64,000 nucleotides of DNA from Verrucomicrobiaceae bacterium. GTDB lineage: Bacteria > Verrucomicrobiota > Verrucomicrobiia > Verrucomicrobiales > Akkermansiaceae. This document shows, in pieces, positions 17,317 through 27,967 of this stretch. How positions within the stretch are numbered: the stretch's first letter is position 1; each line of letters opens with the position of its first letter. Location: assembly GCA_027484055.1 (NCBI GenBank), contig JAIXQH010000066.1, positions 1 to 64,000 of the forward strand, written 5' to 3'. Under the pieces are notes generated by a model. It saw nothing but the letters and a program-made list of their open reading frames with translations. It did not search any database and was not told the origin of the DNA. The translations under genes and the position numbers were made by a program.

Positions 17317-18375
17317 ATGCCCATCGATATTCCCTTGCTGGCCCGTATTTGCGAAGCCCCCGGCGCTCCTGGATTTGAAAAAGTCATCCGCTCGCTCGTC
17401 CTCGAAGAACTCAAAGGCCTCTGCGAAGAGGTCCGCACCGACAACATGGGCAACGTCATCGCCCTGAAAAAAGGCAAGTCCTCGGCCCACAAAACCATGG
17501 CCGCCGCCCACATGGACGAAATCGGCTTCATCGTGACCTACATCGACGACAAGGGCTTCATCCGCTTCAATCCCGTCGGCGGCTTCGATCCCAAAACCCT
17601 TACCTCCCAGCGCGTCATCATCCACGGGCGCAAGGACCTCATGGGCGTCATGGGCTCCAAGCCCGTCCACATCATGTCCCCGGAGGAAAAAAACAAGGTC
17701 GTGAAAATCACCGACTATTTCATCGACACCGGCCTGCCGAAAAAGGAGGTCGAGAAACTCGTTGCCATCGGGGATTTTGTCACCCGTTTCTCCCCACTCA
17801 TCGAGCTAGGCGACTGCATCAACGTGAAATCCCTCGATAACCGCGCCTCCGTTTTCGTCCTCATCCAGACCCTCCGCGAGTTGAAAAAATCCAAGCGCAA
17901 GCCCGCTTACGACTTCTACGCCGTCTTCACCGTGCAAGAAGAAGTCGGCCTCCGTGGCGCCCAGGCCTCCGCCCTCCAAATCCAACCCGATTTCAGCTTC
18001 GGCCTCGACACCACCATCGCCTACGACGTCCCCGGATCAGCGCCACAAGAACGCTGCACCAGCCTCGGTGAAGGCGCGGCCATCAAGCTCATGGACTCCT
18101 CTGTCATCTGTGATTACCGCATGATCGAATTCATGAAGGCCGCCGCCACCCGTCATAAAATCAAATGGCAGCCAGAAATCCTCGCCGCAGGTGGCACCGA
18201 CACCGCCAGCCTCCAGCGCATGGTCGCCGGCGGATCCATCGCCGGTGCCGTCTCCATTCCCACCCGCCACATCCACCAAACCATCGAGTCCTGCCATAAG
18301 GAAGACCTCGCCGCCTGCATCCAGCTCCTCACCGCCTGCGTCTGCGACCTCGACCAACACGACTGGAAATTCTGA
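17317..18375 (+). CDS. M42-family metallo-aminopeptidase
   Basis: Cytoplasmic dinuclear metallopeptidase of family M42 (PepA/FrvX/TET type), which trims N-terminal residues from peptides. The 352 residues are full length. Metal and catalytic motifs are AAHMDEIGF, SLDNRASV, the general base pair in VQEEVGLRGA, GLDTT, and late IPTRHIHQTIESCHKED with the last histidine ligand. A strong terminator follows 30 bases after the stop, so the gene is probably transcribed alone. Codon use is strongly C-ending, like the following nrd genes. Confidence 0.92.
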   Translation: MPIDIPLLARICEAPGAPGFEKVIRSLVLEELKGLCEEVRTDNMGNVIALKKGKSSAHKTMAAAHMDEIGFIVTYIDDKGFIRFNPVGGFDPKTLTSQRVIIHGRKDLMGVMGSKPVHIMSPEEKNKVVKITDYFIDTGLPKKEVEKLVAIGDFVTRFSPLIELGDCINVKSLDNRASVFVLIQTLRELKKSKRKPAYDFYAVFTVQEEVGLRGAQASALQIQPDFSFGLDTTIAYDVPGSAPQERCTSLGEGAAIKLMDSSVICDYRMIEFMKAAATRHKIKWQPEILAAGGTDTASLQRMVAGGSIAGAVSIPTRHIHQTIESCHKEDLAACIQLLTACVCDLDQHDWKF

Positions 18376-18404
18376 TTTTCTCTACATTTACCCATCCCCA
18401 CTCG

Positions 18405-18438
18405 ACCGCCACCCCATCCACGGGGCTGGCGGTTTTTT
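18405..18438 (+). terminator. Rho-independent terminator after the M42 peptidase
   Basis: ACCGCCA / TGGCGGT arms enclose a second CCCC / GGGG pairing and are followed by a run of six T. This separates the peptidase from the nrd operon. Confidence 0.85.
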
Positions 18439-18849
18439 CGTTAAATCCCCCAGCAAATAAACCTCAAACCCACCGGATCCTAAGCCTGCAAAAACTTTTA
18501 TACTTCTAAACCAAGATCTTCTGCGGAAAACCCATCCCTAAACCCCGTTGATTCATAAAAATTAACTATTTTTTTCAAATTTTCATCCCTCCCACTCAAT
18601 CCACCGCTCCGCAAAAAAAATTGATACCCCTAGATGACCCTTCCGATTTCCCGCACCGCCGTCATAAGTCCTAGATCCTCCTTGTGATTTACATGGTAAA
18701 CACTAACTCATAAGCACTACATCTTGTATTGTGAATAATTTGTGGATACCACATGAGCAAAATCGGATTGACCCGGCCCGCCATTTGCTACCACTCTGCA
18801 AACCGCTGAGATTGTTTCTCGACGCTCCAATTCTCCACCATTCACGCCC
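18439..18849 (+). promoter_or_regulatory. Leader of the nrd operon
   Basis: 411 bases, AT-rich, with no convincing gene. It includes a perfect TGTGG-ATA-CCACA palindrome (18741-18753) and, just upstream at 18719-18733, a partial likeness to an NrdR box ending in TATTGTG. Only about 11 of 16 consensus positions fit, and no well-spaced second box is seen, so NrdR control is only a possibility. Confidence 0.35.
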
Positions 18850-19953
18850 ATGTCCGCCATCGCTTCACCCGCCACCACCACCGTCTCTCTCGGAAACAAA
18901 ACCTTCGTCCTCGACCGTGAAAAAGCCGAACTCGCCTATGCCGGCAAGCGCGTGATCAACGGCAAGGAAACCATGTTCTTCAACATCCTCCCGCTGAAAT
19001 ACCAGTGGGCATATGACCTCTACAAGACCATGAAGAACAACCACTGGGAACCAGAGGACGTCACCATGCAAAAGGACGTCGAGCAGTGGCGCTCCAATGA
19101 AATCTCCGATGTCGAACGCTGGATCATTAAAATGGGCATCGGCTATTTCTCCGCCGCAGAAGGCATCGTCGGTGACAACGTGCTCCACGTCGTCCGCGAA
19201 GTCGTCACCGCCCCCGAGCTGAAACTCGTGCTCGGCCGCCACGCCCACGAGGAAAACATCCATGCAGATTCACTCGTTTACATGATTTCCTCCCTCGGCA
19301 TCAACCCACACGAGTGCGAGGCGATGTTCGAGGACATCCCCTCCATCCAGGCGAAAAACCACTTCGTCACCTCCAACAGCCGCGCCCTCCGCCGCGACAT
19401 CGACCTCACCATCACCGAGAATAAACAGGCGCTCGCCAAGAACATCTTCATGTTCGGCCAGGTCATGGAAGGCACCCAGTTCTATGGCCTTTTCGGCATG
19501 ATCCTCAGCCTTTACCGCCAGAACAAATTCCCCGGCATCGGCCAAATGTTCCGCTACACCCTGCGCGACGAGTCGAACCATATCGAAGTCTTCCGCAACC
19601 TGCTCATGGACCTCATCGACGAAAATCCAGACATCTGGACCGAGGATTTCCGCGAGGACCTCCGTGCCACCATGAAAGAAGGCATCACCCTCGAAAAATC
19701 CTTCATCCGCGACTGCCTCCCCGTCGGCGGCCTCGGCCTCAATTCCGCCGATTTCGAGACCTACATCGACTACATCGCCGACCGCCGTCTCACCAGCTGC
19801 GGCCTCGCCCCCCTCAACGAATCCGTCTCCAACCCCTTCCCCTGGCTCGCCGAAATGATGGACATCAAAAAGGAGACCAACTTCTTCGAAGGAAGAGTCA
19901 CGGAATATCAGAAGGCATCGGCGCTGGCCTCGGTGGATGATGATGAGCTGTGA
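18850..19953 (+). CDS. nrdB: Ribonucleotide reductase small subunit, class Ic-like
   Basis: R2 subunit that supplies the radical or oxidising equivalent for deoxyribonucleotide synthesis. Metal ligands are E104 (where E. coli has Asp84), E135 and H138 in EENIHADSL, E207 in MEGTQFY, and E241 and H244 in RDESNH. Four residues after H138, where class Ia has the radical tyrosine, there is L142. Glu for Asp84 plus loss of the tyrosine is the signature of class Ic enzymes, first known from Chlamydia, which use a Mn/Fe centre. The C-terminal EYQKASAL keeps a tyrosine for radical transfer. It lies upstream of nrdA with a repeat-bounded element between. Confidence 0.93.
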   Translation: MSAIASPATTTVSLGNKTFVLDREKAELAYAGKRVINGKETMFFNILPLKYQWAYDLYKTMKNNHWEPEDVTMQKDVEQWRSNEISDVERWIIKMGIGYFSAAEGIVGDNVLHVVREVVTAPELKLVLGRHAHEENIHADSLVYMISSLGINPHECEAMFEDIPSIQAKNHFVTSNSRALRRDIDLTITENKQALAKNIFMFGQVMEGTQFYGLFGMILSLYRQNKFPGIGQMFRYTLRDESNHIEVFRNLLMDLIDENPDIWTEDFREDLRATMKEGITLEKSFIRDCLPVGGLGLNSADFETYIDYIADRRLTSCGLAPLNESVSNPFPWLAEMMDIKKETNFFEGRVTEYQKASALASVDDDEL

Positions 19954-19954
19954 A

Positions 19955-20476
19955 GAAGTGCTGAGTGATCAGTGAGCAGTGATCAGAAAAGAGTAAGGAC
20001 ATGTCCGATAACATAAACACATTTGAAGACCTCGAAGTCTGGAAGCGCGGCTGCCAGCTCGCGGTGGATGTTTATGTCGCAAATCACGCGTCAAAAGATT
20101 TCGGGCTCAAGGATCAGATGCAGCGTGCAGCCGTCTCCATCCCATCCAACATCGCGGAGGGCTGCGAACGCGATAGCACGCCGGATTTCATTAAGTTCCT
20201 CCGCTACAGCAAAGGCTCCTGCGGCGAACTTCGCACCCAGCTCTACATCTCCGACCGGGTTCGCAAAAAACTCAACCAATCCACCCTCGAAGGCTCTCGC
20301 GAAATGATCACCGAAACCAAAGAACTCTCAAAAATGCTTCAAGGTCTCATCAACTCCCTCAAACGCCGCAGCGCTTCCTAGTCCTATCTCCACCTCTTCT
20401 CTGCTCACTGCTCACTCGGCACTTCTTTCATCTCATCCTCTTCTCTGATCACTGCTCACTGATCACTCTGCACTTC
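19955..20476. mobile_element. 522-bp element: four-helix-bundle gene between 39-bp inverted repeats
   Basis: Left arm 19955-19993 and right arm 20438-20476 are inverted copies that match at 37 of 39 positions (GAAGTGCTGAGTGATCAGTG... and complement). A shortened 32-base copy of the right arm lies at 20394-20425. Between them is the gene at 20001-20381. No target duplication is obvious. Read as RNA the whole unit would form a long stem enclosing the gene, like intervening sequences in 23S rRNA. The placement between nrdB and nrdA makes it an insertion into an operon. Confidence 0.75.
20001..20381 (+). CDS. Four helix bundle protein (23S rRNA intervening-sequence type)
   Basis: 126-residue all-helical protein of the S23/four-helix-bundle family, first seen encoded in intervening sequences of 23S rRNA genes and related to diversity-generating retroelement Avd proteins. 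Family blocks: FEDLEVWKRGCQLAVDVY, then AAVSIPSNIAEGCERDST, and DFIKFLRYSKGSCGELRTQL. It is basic and likely a pentamer that binds nucleic acid, by family knowledge. The role outside rRNA is unknown. It is bounded by inverted repeats and interrupts the nrd operon, so it is probably a selfish passenger. Confidence 0.9.
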   Translation: MSDNINTFEDLEVWKRGCQLAVDVYVANHASKDFGLKDQMQRAAVSIPSNIAEGCERDSTPDFIKFLRYSKGSCGELRTQLYISDRVRKKLNQSTLEGSREMITETKELSKMLQGLINSLKRRSAS

Positions 20477-20500
20477 CAAAAAACCTCATCCCAAAATTCC

Positions 20501-23500
20501 ATGTACCGCTCCCTTAACTTAAACGAAGACCTCGCCCTCAAACAAGTCGTCACCGATCGCTTCTCTTTGACCGACCGCGGCTTCGCGTGGCGTGACGTCC
20601 TTTCCACCGAAAAACGCGCCCCTGTCACCGACATCACCATCACCCGCGGCACCACGGACTCGCATTTTTCCCTCGAAGATGTCGCCGACGCCATCGGTGA
20701 CTCGCTTGCCGACCTCCTCATTTCCCGCCAGCAGGACGCAAAATCCATCTTCTCCGACGTCAATCGCCAGTTCGTCTCAGACGTCGCCCACACCGTCGCC
20801 TCCTCGCTCACCAAGTCCCTCGACACCGGCGGTCGCCTCCGTCTTTCCGAAGCCGATCTCTACCTCCTCATCGAGAAAGCCCTGCTCGAAAACGAGGCCT
20901 ACGACGTCGCGAAATCCCTCGCCTTCCGCCGTTCCATGGAAAAAACCGGCACTGTCGATGTCCACACCACCTTGAATTCACTCCCGGTCCGCCTCATCCG
21001 CCGCAATGGCAACGTCGTCCCTTGGTCCGAGACCAAAATCGAAATCGCCGTCCGCAAAGCCTTCCTCACCATCAAGGAAAATCCAGAGCCATCCGTCGAA
21101 GTCGCCAGAGGCGTCACCGACCGCATCCGCCGTGGCGACTCCTCCTTCGTCCACATCGAGGACGTCCAGGACATGGTCCAAGAAGAACTCATGCGCCAAG
21201 GCCATTTCAAGGCCGCGACCCACTACGTCCGCTACCGCGACGAACGCGCTCGCCTCCGCCAGGAGGAAGAAGATCTCGCCGACGATCCGAACCAGGAGTT
21301 GATGGTCACCGTCATTTCCGACGAAGGCATTTCCTCCTTCTGGGACGGCACCGATCTCCGTAAGCGCATCGCCTACGCCTCCATCGGCCTCGATCTCAAT
21401 CTGAACGACGCCGAAATCGAGCGCGAACTCCGCCGCTCCGTCGGCAATGAAATTTCCGCCAAGGATCTCAAAAACACCGTCATCCTCAACGCCAAGGCCC
21501 TCATCGAGAAAGACGCAGACTTCGCGAAATTCGCCGCCCGCATCCTCCTTTCCTACATCTACGAAGAAGTCCTCGACTGGTCGATCCTCCGCGATGGCAT
21601 TGATAAATTGAAGCAAGCCCACAAAGCCGCCTTCAAGTCCTACCTCAAGCACGGCGTCGCCATCAAGCGCCTCACCCCCGAGCTGCTCGACCTCTACGAC
21701 TTGGAAAAAATCTCCGACGCCTTCGACCCCACCGCCGACCTCGACTTCGACTACCTCGGCATTCAAACCCTCTACGATCGTTATTTGATCGTCGATAAAA
21801 CCGGCGACAAACACCGCCGCATCGAGACCCCGCAATTCTTCTGGATGCGCGTCGCCATGGGCCTCTTCAAGCGTGAGGAAAAAGACGCCGAAGGCTGGGT
21901 CATCCGCCTTTACAACCTCTACAAAGGCCGCCGCTTCTGCTCCTCCACGCCCACCCTCTTCAACTCCGGCACCCTCCACAGCCAGCTCTCCTCCTGCTAC
22001 CTCTACAAGGTGGACGACTCCATCGAGTCCATCATGTATCGCGGCATCGCCGAAAACGCCTTCCTCTCGAAATGGGCCGGCGGCCTCGGTGGCTCATGGA
22101 CCGCCGTCCGCGGCACCGGCGGCTACATCCAGGGCACCAATGGCGAGTCCCAAGGCATCATCCCCTTCCTCAAGCTCCACAACGACCAGCTCGTCGCCGT
22201 CAACCAAGGCGGAAAACGCCGCGGCTCCGGCTGCGCCTACCTCGAAACGTGGCACAACGACATCGAAGACTTCCTCGACCTCCGGAAAAACACCGGTGAC
22301 GAACGCCGCCGCTGCCACGACATGAACACCGCCAACTGGGTTCCCGACCTCTTCATGAAACGCATGGAAGAGCGCGGCACCTGGACCCTCTTCCGCGCCA
22401 ACGAAGTCCCCGATCTCCACGACCTCTACGGCTCCGCCTTCGAGCAGCGCTACTGCGAATACGAGCAAATGGCCGCCGATGGCAAAATCTGGTCCCGCCC
22501 CCTGCCCGCCCTCGAGCTCTGGAAATCCATGCTCAAGATGGTCTTCGAAACCGGCCACCCATGGATCACCTTCAAGGACCCCTGCAACGTCCGCAGCCCG
22601 CAGGACCACTGCGGCGTCATCCACTCCAGCAACCTCTGCACCGAGATCACGCTGAACACCTCCGCCGACGAAACCGCCGTTTGCAACCTCGGCTCCGTCG
22701 TCCTCGATACCCACATCACCCGTGACGGCGCGCTCGATCACGAGATGCTCAAGGAAACCATCACCGTCGCCATCCGCGCCCTCGACAACGTCATCGACAT
22801 CAACTTCTACCCCACCGAAGCCGCCCGCACCGCCAACACCCGCCACCGCCCCATCGGCCTCGGCGTCATGGGCGTCCAGAACGCCCTCTACAAGCGCAAC
22901 CTCGCCTTCGCCTCCGATGCCGCCGTCGAGTTCAACGACGAGTTCATGGAAGCCATCGCCTACTACGCCTACAACGCCTCCAGCGACCTCGCCTCCGAAG
23001 TCGGCACCTACAGCAGTTACAAAGGCAGCAAATGGGACCGCGGTCTCCTCCCGCAGGACACCATCGATCTCCTCGAGACCGAGCGCGGCCGCAAGATCGA
23101 CGTCCCGCGCGGCGGGAAAATGGACTGGTCCGTCGTCCGGGAAAAAATCGCCAAACACGGCATGCGCAACTCCAACGTCCTCGCCATCGCCCCCACCGCC
23201 ACCATCTCGAACATCATGGGCACCACCCCCTGCATCGAGCCCAACTACAAGAACCTCTACGTCAAATCCAACCTCTCCGGCGACTTCATCGTCCTCAACA
23301 GCGAGCTCGTCAAAGACCTCAAGAAGGCCAACCTCTGGAACCAGGAAATGCTCGACCAGCTCAAGTACTTCGACGGCGAGCTCGACGCCATCGACGACAT
23401 CCCGGAAGCCCTCAAGCACAAGCACAAGACCGTCTTCGGCATCGACTACGAATACATCATCGACGCCGCCGCCCGCCGCCAGAAGTGGATCGACCAAAGC

Positions 23501-23782
23501 CAGAGCGTCAACCTCTTCCTCGCCACCCCCGAGATGAAGACCCTCTCCCACATGTATCGCCGCGCCTGGGACAAAGGCCTCAAGACCACCTACTACCTCC
23601 GCACCCTCCAAGCCTCCAACATCGAGAAATCCACCATCGACGTCAAAAAGGAACAACGCGGCGTCATGGCCACCCAAACCGCCGCCACCGCCGCCGAAGC
23701 CAAGCAATACACCGCAGCCGAGAAAAACGCCTGCAGCATCGACGCCATGCTCAACGGCGGCACCTGCGAGGCCTGCCAATAA
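20501..23782 (+). CDS. nrdA: Ribonucleoside-diphosphate reductase large subunit
   Basis: R1 subunit that reduces NDPs to dNDPs and carries the active and allosteric sites. At 1093 residues it is longer than E. coli NrdA because two N-terminal ATP-cone-like regions precede the core: one degenerate at about 60-150, and one starting VRLIRRNGNVVPWSETKIEI. Catalytic features are all present: C499 in SSCYLYK, NLCTE (711-715) with C713 and E715, C728 in CNLGS, the radical-path Y1031-Y1032, and the C-terminal C1089/C1092 pair in GGTCEACQ. ATP cones imply dATP feedback. It follows nrdB after the inserted element and is intact. Confidence 0.96.
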   Translation: MYRSLNLNEDLALKQVVTDRFSLTDRGFAWRDVLSTEKRAPVTDITITRGTTDSHFSLEDVADAIGDSLADLLISRQQDAKSIFSDVNRQFVSDVAHTVASSLTKSLDTGGRLRLSEADLYLLIEKALLENEAYDVAKSLAFRRSMEKTGTVDVHTTLNSLPVRLIRRNGNVVPWSETKIEIAVRKAFLTIKENPEPSVEVARGVTDRIRRGDSSFVHIEDVQDMVQEELMRQGHFKAATHYVRYRDERARLRQEEEDLADDPNQELMVTVISDEGISSFWDGTDLRKRIAYASIGLDLNLNDAEIERELRRSVGNEISAKDLKNTVILNAKALIEKDADFAKFAARILLSYIYEEVLDWSILRDGIDKLKQAHKAAFKSYLKHGVAIKRLTPELLDLYDLEKISDAFDPTADLDFDYLGIQTLYDRYLIVDKTGDKHRRIETPQFFWMRVAMGLFKREEKDAEGWVIRLYNLYKGRRFCSSTPTLFNSGTLHSQLSSCYLYKVDDSIESIMYRGIAENAFLSKWAGGLGGSWTAVRGTGGYIQGTNGESQGIIPFLKLHNDQLVAVNQGGKRRGSGCAYLETWHNDIEDFLDLRKNTGDERRRCHDMNTANWVPDLFMKRMEERGTWTLFRANEVPDLHDLYGSAFEQRYCEYEQMAADGKIWSRPLPALELWKSMLKMVFETGHPWITFKDPCNVRSPQDHCGVIHSSNLCTEITLNTSADETAVCNLGSVVLDTHITRDGALDHEMLKETITVAIRALDNVIDINFYPTEAARTANTRHRPIGLGVMGVQNALYKRNLAFASDAAVEFNDEFMEAIAYYAYNASSDLASEVGTYSSYKGSKWDRGLLPQDTIDLLETERGRKIDVPRGGKMDWSVVREKIAKHGMRNSNVLAIAPTATISNIMGTTPCIEPNYKNLYVKSNLSGDFIVLNSELVKDLKKANLWNQEMLDQLKYFDGELDAIDDIPEALKHKHKTVFGIDYEYIIDAAARRQKWIDQSQSVNLFLATPEMKTLSHMYRRAWDKGLKTTYYLRTLQASNIEKSTIDVKKEQRGVMATQTAATAAEAKQYTAAEKNACSIDAMLNGGTCEACQ

Positions 23783-23820
23783 GCAGAAGCGACACACCTA
23801 TCGCTTCCAGGACCTAGACT

Positions 23821-25047
23821 ATGATTACACCAGAATATCTTGCGAAATTTGGACTTCAGATGGTCCAAGAAAAGGTTGGAGAAGGAGGATCGGCAGTTGT
23901 TCACAAATGCCGCATTGTAGATACCATTGTACCTGGCTTTCCTCAAAAGGGCAGTTATGTAGCCGTGAAAGAATTTCGGCAAGAGATGCTAGCGACTCCA
24001 GGACAGTTGCAGCGAATTGAACAGGAAGCAGAAATTGGTGCTACTTTGGCATCCGACTACTTGGCAAAAATTTATGCAAAAGATGTTGGCGATGGTGTTC
24101 CTCCAAGTCAGTGCGTTCTATTCATGGAATGGATGACCGGCCCTACATTGCACCATTGGGCCACAAGTAAGAAATCAGATAGACCAGGGCGCTGGGATAT
24201 CGTCCGTAACTTCTGTCGACAGATTGTGAAAGGTGTCCAGCATCTGCACACCTCAGGGATCCACCACCGAGATTTGAAGACCGAGAACATCATGCTCAGG
24301 TCTGGAAATCAGCCTGTTATAATGGATGTCGGAGTTGCTGAAATCGCCCGAGGCACTGAACACACAATGCATACCCGTGTGAAAGATTTTCTCGGGAGCG
24401 TCCGATACTCATCCCCGCAGTTTCTACGAGGCGAAGAATTCGATCCTAGTGATGATGTGTATTCATTGGGATGCACGTTTCTTGAGCTCATTACCGGAAA
24501 ACAACCCTACCACCAGGAGGAACGCAAAGTGTTACTGCCATCGATTGTAATGCAAGGGCCGCCTGAAATCCCTGATTCAATTGCGGAACTCGCAGATGGA
24601 CTTGATGTATTGCTTCGTGGTTGCACTCACTCACAGCGTTCACGACGCCCAACGCTTCATGAGTTGGGTGAGTATCTCGAAGTCGGCAAGTCAACGGATT
24701 ACATCCAACTGGAACGAGGGCGTCAATATGAAGATCAACGCGGATGGACCGTTCTTCACGTTGACGGCTACGACATCTATCTTGATGTGGGGAAGACTTC
24801 TATATACACACATCAAGACTACAAAGTTGTGCGATTGGGAGAGCCAATCCTTCTTCCCAGCACGGGGCAAAAGCAATTACCACAGCGGCTGATTGGAAAA
24901 GCTAAACATCTCCACACAAGCAACACTCTGGCTCACTTCCGATACACGCCAAATATCGAGCAAAAGATGAATATTGATGCCGAAATTTACGGATTGCCCA
25001 ACCCTGTTTTGGATATGGTCAAAGTGGGTGACCGAGTGGTATCGTAG
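23821..25047 (+). CDS. Soluble eukaryotic-like Ser/Thr protein kinase
   Basis: 408 residues. The kinase domain (about 12-270) has a Gly loop VGEGGSAVVHK, K50 in VAVKEF, the catalytic HRDLKTEN (D151, K153, N156), DVG in place of DFG (D169), SPQ in place of APE, and DDVYSLGCTFLELITGKQPY. All catalytic residues are present, so it is likely active. Residues 285-408 form a domain I cannot place, including WTVLHVDGYDIYLDVGKTSI. There is no membrane helix or extracellular sensor. Base composition is clearly more AT-rich than nrdA, 38 bases upstream, suggesting acquisition. Substrates are unknown; proximity to a NACHT remnant hints at a defence role. Confidence 0.88.
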   Translation: MITPEYLAKFGLQMVQEKVGEGGSAVVHKCRIVDTIVPGFPQKGSYVAVKEFRQEMLATPGQLQRIEQEAEIGATLASDYLAKIYAKDVGDGVPPSQCVLFMEWMTGPTLHHWATSKKSDRPGRWDIVRNFCRQIVKGVQHLHTSGIHHRDLKTENIMLRSGNQPVIMDVGVAEIARGTEHTMHTRVKDFLGSVRYSSPQFLRGEEFDPSDDVYSLGCTFLELITGKQPYHQEERKVLLPSIVMQGPPEIPDSIAELADGLDVLLRGCTHSQRSRRPTLHELGEYLEVGKSTDYIQLERGRQYEDQRGWTVLHVDGYDIYLDVGKTSIYTHQDYKVVRLGEPILLPSTGQKQLPQRLIGKAKHLHTSNTLAHFRYTPNIEQKMNIDAEIYGLPNPVLDMVKVGDRVVS

Positions 25048-26863: not shown

Positions 26864-27967
26864 TTGGGCATGAGACGTGCGCGATGGTTGGCTGAATGGC
26901 GGGGAACTGCTGGGAAGCCGGTGCTGTACCACGTGATTTCTCGGGTGGTGGATCGCCGTTTTGTGTTGGGGACTGCGGAAAAGGAGAAATTCCGGACCCT
27001 GATGCGGATGCAGGAGAATTTCACGGGTTGCCGGGTTTTGTCTTACTGCCTCATGGACAATCATTTCCATCTATTGCTGGAGGTTCCGCAGGTTACGGAG
27101 GGTGGGCTGTCCGATGAGGAGCTGCTGCGTCGGCTTTTGGCGATTTATGATGAGGGTGCCGTGGCGTTTGTGGCCAAGGAGTTGGCGGATGCCAGGGCGG
27201 CGGTTTATCAGAATGAGGGCGGTTTGGCCGGTGCGCTAGCGGCGATTCACCAGCGGTTCACGTATCGGATGCATGATTTGGGTGAGTTCATGAAGGGGCT
27301 GCTGCAACGTTTCACGCAGTGGTTCAATCGGGTGCAGGCCCGTTCGGGGACGCTATGGGAGGAACGATTTAAGAGCGTGATCGTGGAAGATGGCGTAGCC
27401 GCACGAACCATTTCAGCTTACATCGACTTGAATCCCGTGCGCGCTGGGATGGTGCAGGATCCGGCAGCTTACCGATGGAGCAGTTATGGCGAAGCGGTGG
27501 GCGGTGGGAAGAAGGGAAATGGTAGGAAGGCGCGCGAGGGTTTGGTCCGGGCGTATTTTTGCGATCAGGGAGTCGGTTTCGATGTTGGCAAATGGGCCGA
27601 CGTTTCGCGGTTGTATCGGCGTTTGATGGGCCTTGCGCTGGGCCGGAATCCCGGACGCGCGGATGTGTCTCAGGAGGCAAAAGGACTCGGGCAGACGACG
27701 AAGAACACGGCTGAGTTCTTGGAAAGCGAGGACAGCGAAACGCCTTTAAAAGATCTGGGCACCGCGAAAATGTTGCGTTGTAGGATTCGTTATTTCACGG
27801 ACGGTGCGGTGATCGGTAGCAGAGATTTTGTGAACGAGGCCTTTGCGAGTGCGAGGGATCGATTTGGCCCAAAGCGCAAAGACGGGGCGAGAAGGCTGAG
27901 AGGCGAGGGAGCAGCTGCGGGCAGAGCGCTATGGAGCTTGAGGGATCTGCGGAAGGGAATTCTGTGA
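26864..27967 (+). CDS. REP-associated tyrosine transposase (RAYT, Y1 HuH family)
   Basis: 367-residue single-strand-DNA transposase of the Y1 (TnpA/IS200-like) fold that processes REP palindromes. Catalytic features: the HuH motif NHFHLLLE (H67, H69) and the tyrosine Y186 in AYIDLNPVRAGM. Other family blocks are YHVISRVVDRRFVLG near the start and FTQWFNRVQARSGTLWEERF. Starting at 26864 or at the third codon makes little difference. It is full length and probably active. The C-terminal 170 residues extend beyond the common RAYT core. It adjoins the cut NACHT gene and two RAYT fragments. Confidence 0.9.
   Translation: MGMRRARWLAEWRGTAGKPVLYHVISRVVDRRFVLGTAEKEKFRTLMRMQENFTGCRVLSYCLMDNHFHLLLEVPQVTEGGLSDEELLRRLLAIYDEGAVAFVAKELADARAAVYQNEGGLAGALAAIHQRFTYRMHDLGEFMKGLLQRFTQWFNRVQARSGTLWEERFKSVIVEDGVAARTISAYIDLNPVRAGMVQDPAAYRWSSYGEAVGGGKKGNGRKAREGLVRAYFCDQGVGFDVGKWADVSRLYRRLMGLALGRNPGRADVSQEAKGLGQTTKNTAEFLESEDSETPLKDLGTAKMLRCRIRYFTDGAVIGSRDFVNEAFASARDRFGPKRKDGARRLRGEGAAAGRALWSLRDLRKGIL

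Follow-up and report, generated by a model that had tools for sequence, protein, structure and literature searches.

S23 genes between inverted heptamer arrays: an element in the nrdB-nrdA spacer of a Verrucomicrobiaceae bacterium and its probable kinship with dispersed repeats

S23 proteins are widespread in bacteria and structures have been solved, and we know of no function for them. Heptameric repeats, which include the STRRs of cyanobacteria, have been reported separately for decades; to our knowledge, a cause was never given. The rRNA intervening sequences (IVS) of Coxiella and Leptospira hold an S23 gene within complementary ends that form a long stem. In the Coxiella IVS three tandem GACAGAT heptamers adjoin the S23 ORF, the first of them holding an RNase III site (PMC4990558), and published work has regarded these heptamers as something local to that IVS; S23 (IVP) ORFs are also known from rRNA insertions in CPR bacteria (PMC11270868). 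REPIN/RAYT systems are made of short dispersed inverted pairs cognate to a gene with the same flanking sequence. The heptameric repeats of Xanthomonas, Nostoc and Beggiatoaceae are intergenic, with a period of 7 and a lineage-specific word: GGGAATC is abundant in Xanthomonas and a related GGGGA(C/T)T word is found in Nostoc (PMC4692102), and TAACTGA repeats are known from Beggiatoaceae, cyanobacteria and Bacteroidetes in a report that leaves S23 unmentioned (PMC4679880).

The locus analysed here, within a 64-kb stretch of DNA (the window), is an S23 gene between nrdB and nrdA (Table 1). Like the rRNA IVS it has its S23 gene within complementary ends that are predicted to form a long stem; unlike the IVS it is located in a protein operon rather than within a 16S or 23S rRNA gene, its heptamer is TGATCAG or TGAGCAG, and its arms are dispersed in the genome. 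No Rfam match was obtained in 18000-24000. With REPIN/RAYT the locus shares dispersed inverted pairs and a gene whose flanks carry the sequence of those pairs, whereas the gene is S23 rather than a Y1 transposase and the arm is a heptamer array rather than a REP palindrome. The S23 arms have the period, the intergenic position and the lineage-specific word of the heptameric repeats. A literature search limited to open-access articles turned up none on a general link between S23 and heptamers.

Table 1. Features of the nrd locus, in window coordinates
Feature	Coordinates	Strand	Description
nrdB	18850..19953	+	context; class I ribonucleotide reductase beta
left arm	19955..19993		heptamer array GAAGTGCTGAGTGATCAGTGAGCAGTGATCAGAAAAGAG; inward-pointing strand AG-rich
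S23 / 23S rRNA-IVP four-helix-bundle protein gene	20001..20381	+	126 aa; PF05635, TIGR02436
third arm	20394..20425		oriented like the right arm, one heptamer fewer
right arm	20438..20476		inverted copy of the left arm, 37/39 pairs
nrdA	20501..23782	+	context; ribonucleotide reductase alpha

The outer arms are 39 nt each, 95% complementary and spaced 444 nt apart, compared with 27 nt and 70% for the runner-up, an unrelated inverted pair in the same 2.5 kb; the left arm was also retrieved as half of the flanking inverted pair in two further comparisons. Both the arms around an intact S23 gene and the shorter third arm were found as originally predicted. The “14-base unit” proposed for the arms consists of two heptamers, TGATCAG+TGAGCAG; the repeating unit is the heptamer. 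Judging from the sequence, the purine-rich inner end of the left arm merges into the likely S23 ribosome-binding site. The RNA of the region is predicted to fold as a single long stem closing the S23 gene (-174.7 kcal/mol, z=-5.3), as had been expected of the transcript, and the suspected likeness to an rRNA intervening sequence is borne out by the S23 ORF and tandem GACAGAT heptamers of the Coxiella IVS (PMC4990558). A scan across the 64-kb window yielded no long clean heptamer array, and the nrd locus is therefore the sole one noticed in it. Elsewhere in the window a 367-aa ORF (26864-27967) has a weak Y1_Tnp match in its N-terminal part (26924-27091), one among 13 such matches genome-wide.

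The S23 protein matched PF05635 (E=3.7e-31; 107.9 bits vs the curated cut-off of 33.8) and TIGR02436 (E=1.1e-31; 109.3 bits vs the curated cut-off of 24), in each case at full length. The solved structures closest to its AlphaFold2 model (pLDDT 96) are the four-helix bundles 2GSC, from Xanthomonas campestris, and 2RLD (Foldseek TM 0.70-0.78 by query length), followed by Avd of the diversity-generating retroelements (4DWL; TM about 0.70-0.72 by query length, E only 0.2-0.3). The fold is like that of Avd, whereas identity is about 11% and no reverse transcriptase is present among the genes adjoining the window S23. The Avd-like fold of the model suggests that S23 may work in a nucleic-acid-protein complex. 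Purifying selection on S23 was estimated in seven pairs, with dN of 0.04-0.21 and dS of 0.9-1.8 (near saturation); the resulting dN/dS of about 0.05-0.15 suggests that the protein is useful, or at the least kept up actively. This, and the lack of a recognised catalytic domain in S23, count against the explanation favoured below.

The association of S23 genes with heptamer arrays was assessed for 115 loci from the family of the window, which includes Persicirhabdus and Roseibacillus, and for 102 further loci from other collections (Pseudomonadota, Bacteroidota, Acidobacteriota, Planctomycetota, Chloroflexota, Bacillota, candidate phyla, viral contigs and cyanobacterial plasmids). Inverted arms (score of at least 12) flanked 75% of the family loci vs 6% when flanks from different genes were paired, and 75% of the further loci vs 3% for mismatched flanks; the mismatched-flank controls are conservative because orthologs are among them. 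Lag-7 self-match was 0.37-0.40 beside the family genes vs 0.24 at 400-600 bases, and 0.36-0.51 by group vs 0.25-0.28 in the second set. A pooled set of 212 loci, about half from the family of the window and drawn from sampled genomes that span more than 10 bacterial phyla, had a heptamer array on one or both sides in 78% of cases vs 2.4% of far flanks; these loci are phylogenetically related, come mostly from draft genomes or MAGs, and were taken from the best S23 matches, with the most divergent S23 genes, several of them armless, under-sampled. The inward strand was purine-rich in 73 of the 91 upstream and 72 of the 86 downstream arrays of the pooled loci, and 82% of their array consensus heptamers contained AG, vs 58% expected from composition. 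The heptamer word differs by S23 lineage, and arm similarity tracks S23 similarity, which is largely a matter of orthology. A position outside rRNA, to which the original prediction drew attention, is not exceptional: none of the 40 scanned loci from other groups was inside an rRNA gene.

Within the genome of the window (G000; 4.4 Mb, 70 contigs) the arm recurs as a dispersed repeat. With up to 3 mismatches, the pattern CTGMTCACTGMTCACTSGGCA gave 37 matches, vs 3 for the reversed control pattern, and with up to 1 mismatch it was found at 13 places outside the nrd locus, dispersed copies being counted by pattern search only. These copies approximate GAAGTGCCGAGTGA-(KCAGTGA)n-KCAG-AGAAGAG and have their ends in common. 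Several are in frame within two uvrA genes (G000:C61:177188-180481, L015; G000:C10:48116-48209, L017); the frame of one of them spans about 1,900 codons and holds five or more arrays. An inverted arm pair in uvrA makes up 32 extra codons between WLAV and WLGIQDF, a position where 19 of the 29 compared relatives have, by alignment, just the basal 8 residues, so arrays do enter new sites. At the same codon other relatives have different inserts, including AACATCG arrays (G001, G183, G186) and, in G153, an AGAGACC-like array similar to the arms of one of that genome's own S23 genes (L213); the codon is an insertion hot spot across the genus. Composite clusters were also seen in G000 (G000:C10:101876-104660, L016), in which arms stand beside other short words in tandem, AATCTCC and one resembling CGCAGAGG, with three near-copies inside 1.4 kb.

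Dispersal was likewise found in other genomes. The S23 arms of Dyella are GGGAATC/GGGAATA, matching the Xanthomonas-type heptamer of PMC4692102, which is silent on S23, and the same heptamer occurs at about 20 other places. Many of these Dyella copies are inverted pairs between genes, about 55-75 bases apart, so that dispersed inverted arm pairs, as in REPINs, are present in Dyella and other genomes as well as in the uvrA of G000. The hairpin loops vary by copy and are not conserved, unlike those of simple MITEs, and this counts against the explanation favoured below. AGTGATC-type arms were detected in 1 of 35 genomes without S23 vs 48 of 110 with it. Genome G092, 96% complete and well assembled, has 25 AGTGATC-type and 17 AGTTTTC-type arm matches; no S23 was detected in it at that completeness, which may be a real absence or a gap.

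An S23 gene between nrdB and nrdA is present in many genera, and the Verrucomicrobial nrd copies group together on the S23 tree with few exceptions (5 label changes vs 22 in shuffles). The nrd element is largely an old, vertically inherited resident across genera. Movement of the S23 gene is rare, since outer flanks are common to 290 of the 340 S23 pairs with at least 60% identity. At this spacer S23 is missing from some relatives, the arm sequence is not conserved among them and the arm recurs elsewhere, so neither of the outcomes named in the original prediction as refuting it came about. Four close sisters (G001, G009, G011, G171) have no S23 there. One of these, G171, has an empty nrd spacer and carries at another locus, with the same kind of arms, the closest relative of the window S23 (L248; 88% aa identity, sister with support 92/96); similarity between L248 and the window stops within the arms. 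The comparison indicates that S23 was lost from nrd in some sisters and relocated once. The mobile unit of the original prediction thus stands as far as arm copies at other genome sites and a closest relative elsewhere are concerned, and fails as a fresh insertion of the nrd copy, which belongs largely to one old clade. A search at nrdB-nrdA for a clean unoccupied site showing target duplication gave no readable insertion junction, since the S23-less sisters have unrelated spacers; no target-site duplication was found. Pseudoalteromonas flanks were tried as an empty-site test and rejected, their left and right flanks being non-adjacent in the other species. In one assembly two nrdBA operons occur, one with S23 and one without (G042:C71 and G042:C60), which may represent duplication or a mixed assembly.

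Among 13 nrd loci the heptamer families of the arms differ, and the left and right arm of one locus match better (22.5) than orthologous arms from different loci (15.5 and 12.0). These comparisons indicate that the two arms of a locus switched heptamer in step, mostly to the one that is scattered through the same genome. Genomes with AGTTTTC-type nrd arms have a higher ratio of dispersed AGTTTTC to AGTGATC than AGTGATC-armed genomes (exact P=0.0016; P=0.015 with the arms of the locus itself left out), a comparison of five vs eight genomes with G035 and G055 as exceptions; given the relatedness of these 13 genomes and the assignment of arm types by eye, the P values are descriptive.

We consider that the window probably holds an S23-heptamer element, of a kind that has until now been described only from rRNA, as the intervening sequence, and that its arms are REPIN-like copies. 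Such elements, which would make up a very widespread class, consist of an S23 gene between two inverted heptamer arrays with the AG-rich strand usually inward; their arms would also travel on their own, one at a time or in inverted pairs (hairpins), to intergenic spacers and to in-frame coding sites, in the manner of REPINs with RAYT transposases. Besides the points noted above, the rarity of gene movement, the orthology behind much of the arm similarity, the heptamers of G092 and the lack of a target-site duplication tell against this reading. S23, a pentamer by homology with an Avd fold, would recognise its own heptamer array, either as DNA or as an RNA stem; joined by a host activity (candidates are reverse transcriptase, recombination and RNase III), it would allow arms to be copied to new sites and keep the two arms of one element alike. 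The copy in the nrd operon is an old vertical resident whose transcript would fold into the long stem and might be cut by RNase III.

The same locus could be read as a domesticated RNA element, in which S23 and its arms form a fixed nrd regulatory cassette whose mobility is past, RNase III cuts the stem and so separates nrdB from nrdA or sets S23 output, and selection keeps the pairing. Vertical inheritance at nrd across genera, the low dN/dS of S23, the strong predicted stem and the RNase III cut at the first heptamer of the Coxiella IVS stem (PMC4990558) all agree with this, yet close sisters with short spacers have lost S23 and the identical architecture is found at unrelated genes in many phyla. 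Compensatory change alone, moreover, leaves unexplained both why the new heptamer is usually the one dispersed in the genome and why arm pairs occur in uvrA, and we regard domestication as an unlikely account. That another enzyme, a RAYT/Y1 or other transposase, moves the arrays with S23 as a passenger or binder is less likely again. Y1_Tnp genes were indeed present in 10 of 10 genomes tested, and heptamers persist in G092, where S23 was not detected. However, the flanks of about 20 Y1_Tnp loci in ten genomes of the group had no heptamer periodicity (lag-7 0.27-0.28), and the strong inverted repeats that these Y1_Tnp/RAYT genes do possess are separate, GC-rich REPs; no cognate Y1 (TnpA_REP) gene flanked by the arm repeat was found, and RAYT was rejected as mover of the arms. 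It is S23 that heptamers flank across phyla, and S23-bearing genomes that have AGTGATC-type arms (the 48 of 110 vs 1 of 35 above). Simple polymerase slippage, with S23 genes merely near or inside the repeats, was proposed earlier for heptameric repeats, going by the citation in PMC4692102, and would suit the variable length of the arrays. As the sole cause it is rejected because the arms are inverted, and insertion into one tandem array cannot yield inversion; arms of one family also have common ends, and arrays turn up as inverted pairs at new sites. We give this account hardly any credence.

For the S23-heptamer element a wider reading may be offered, tentatively and with some doubt on our part: S23 could be the active part of an unrecognised cross-phylum mobile element, with heptameric repeats as its non-autonomous copies and the rRNA IVS as a special site. 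If so, long-unexplained repeats of cyanobacteria, Xanthomonas, Beggiatoaceae and others would be non-autonomous copies of S23 elements. The strong, specific and phylum-wide link between S23 and heptamers offers a testable explanation for both, namely that S23 recognises the arrays and causes or regulates their spread. The link would also provide a second REPIN-like system, with a non-transposase as partner, and would point to where in-frame insertions in uvrA and similar genes come from.

Cyanobacterial plasmids gave some further settings. On Nostoc edaphicum plasmid pNe_5 (L350) nrdA and nrdB enclose an S23 gene with AGTAGGG arms that is encoded on the opposite strand; it is separate from the Verrucomicrobial nrd copies on the S23 tree, and seems to have entered this gene pair independently of the window copy. 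Heptamer-flanked S23 genes were also seen on a Pseudanabaena galeata plasmid (L356) and on Nostoc plasmids (L351, L352 and L355, the last without clear inverted arms), where they lie between cas6 and cas4 or among hypothetical or conjugation genes.
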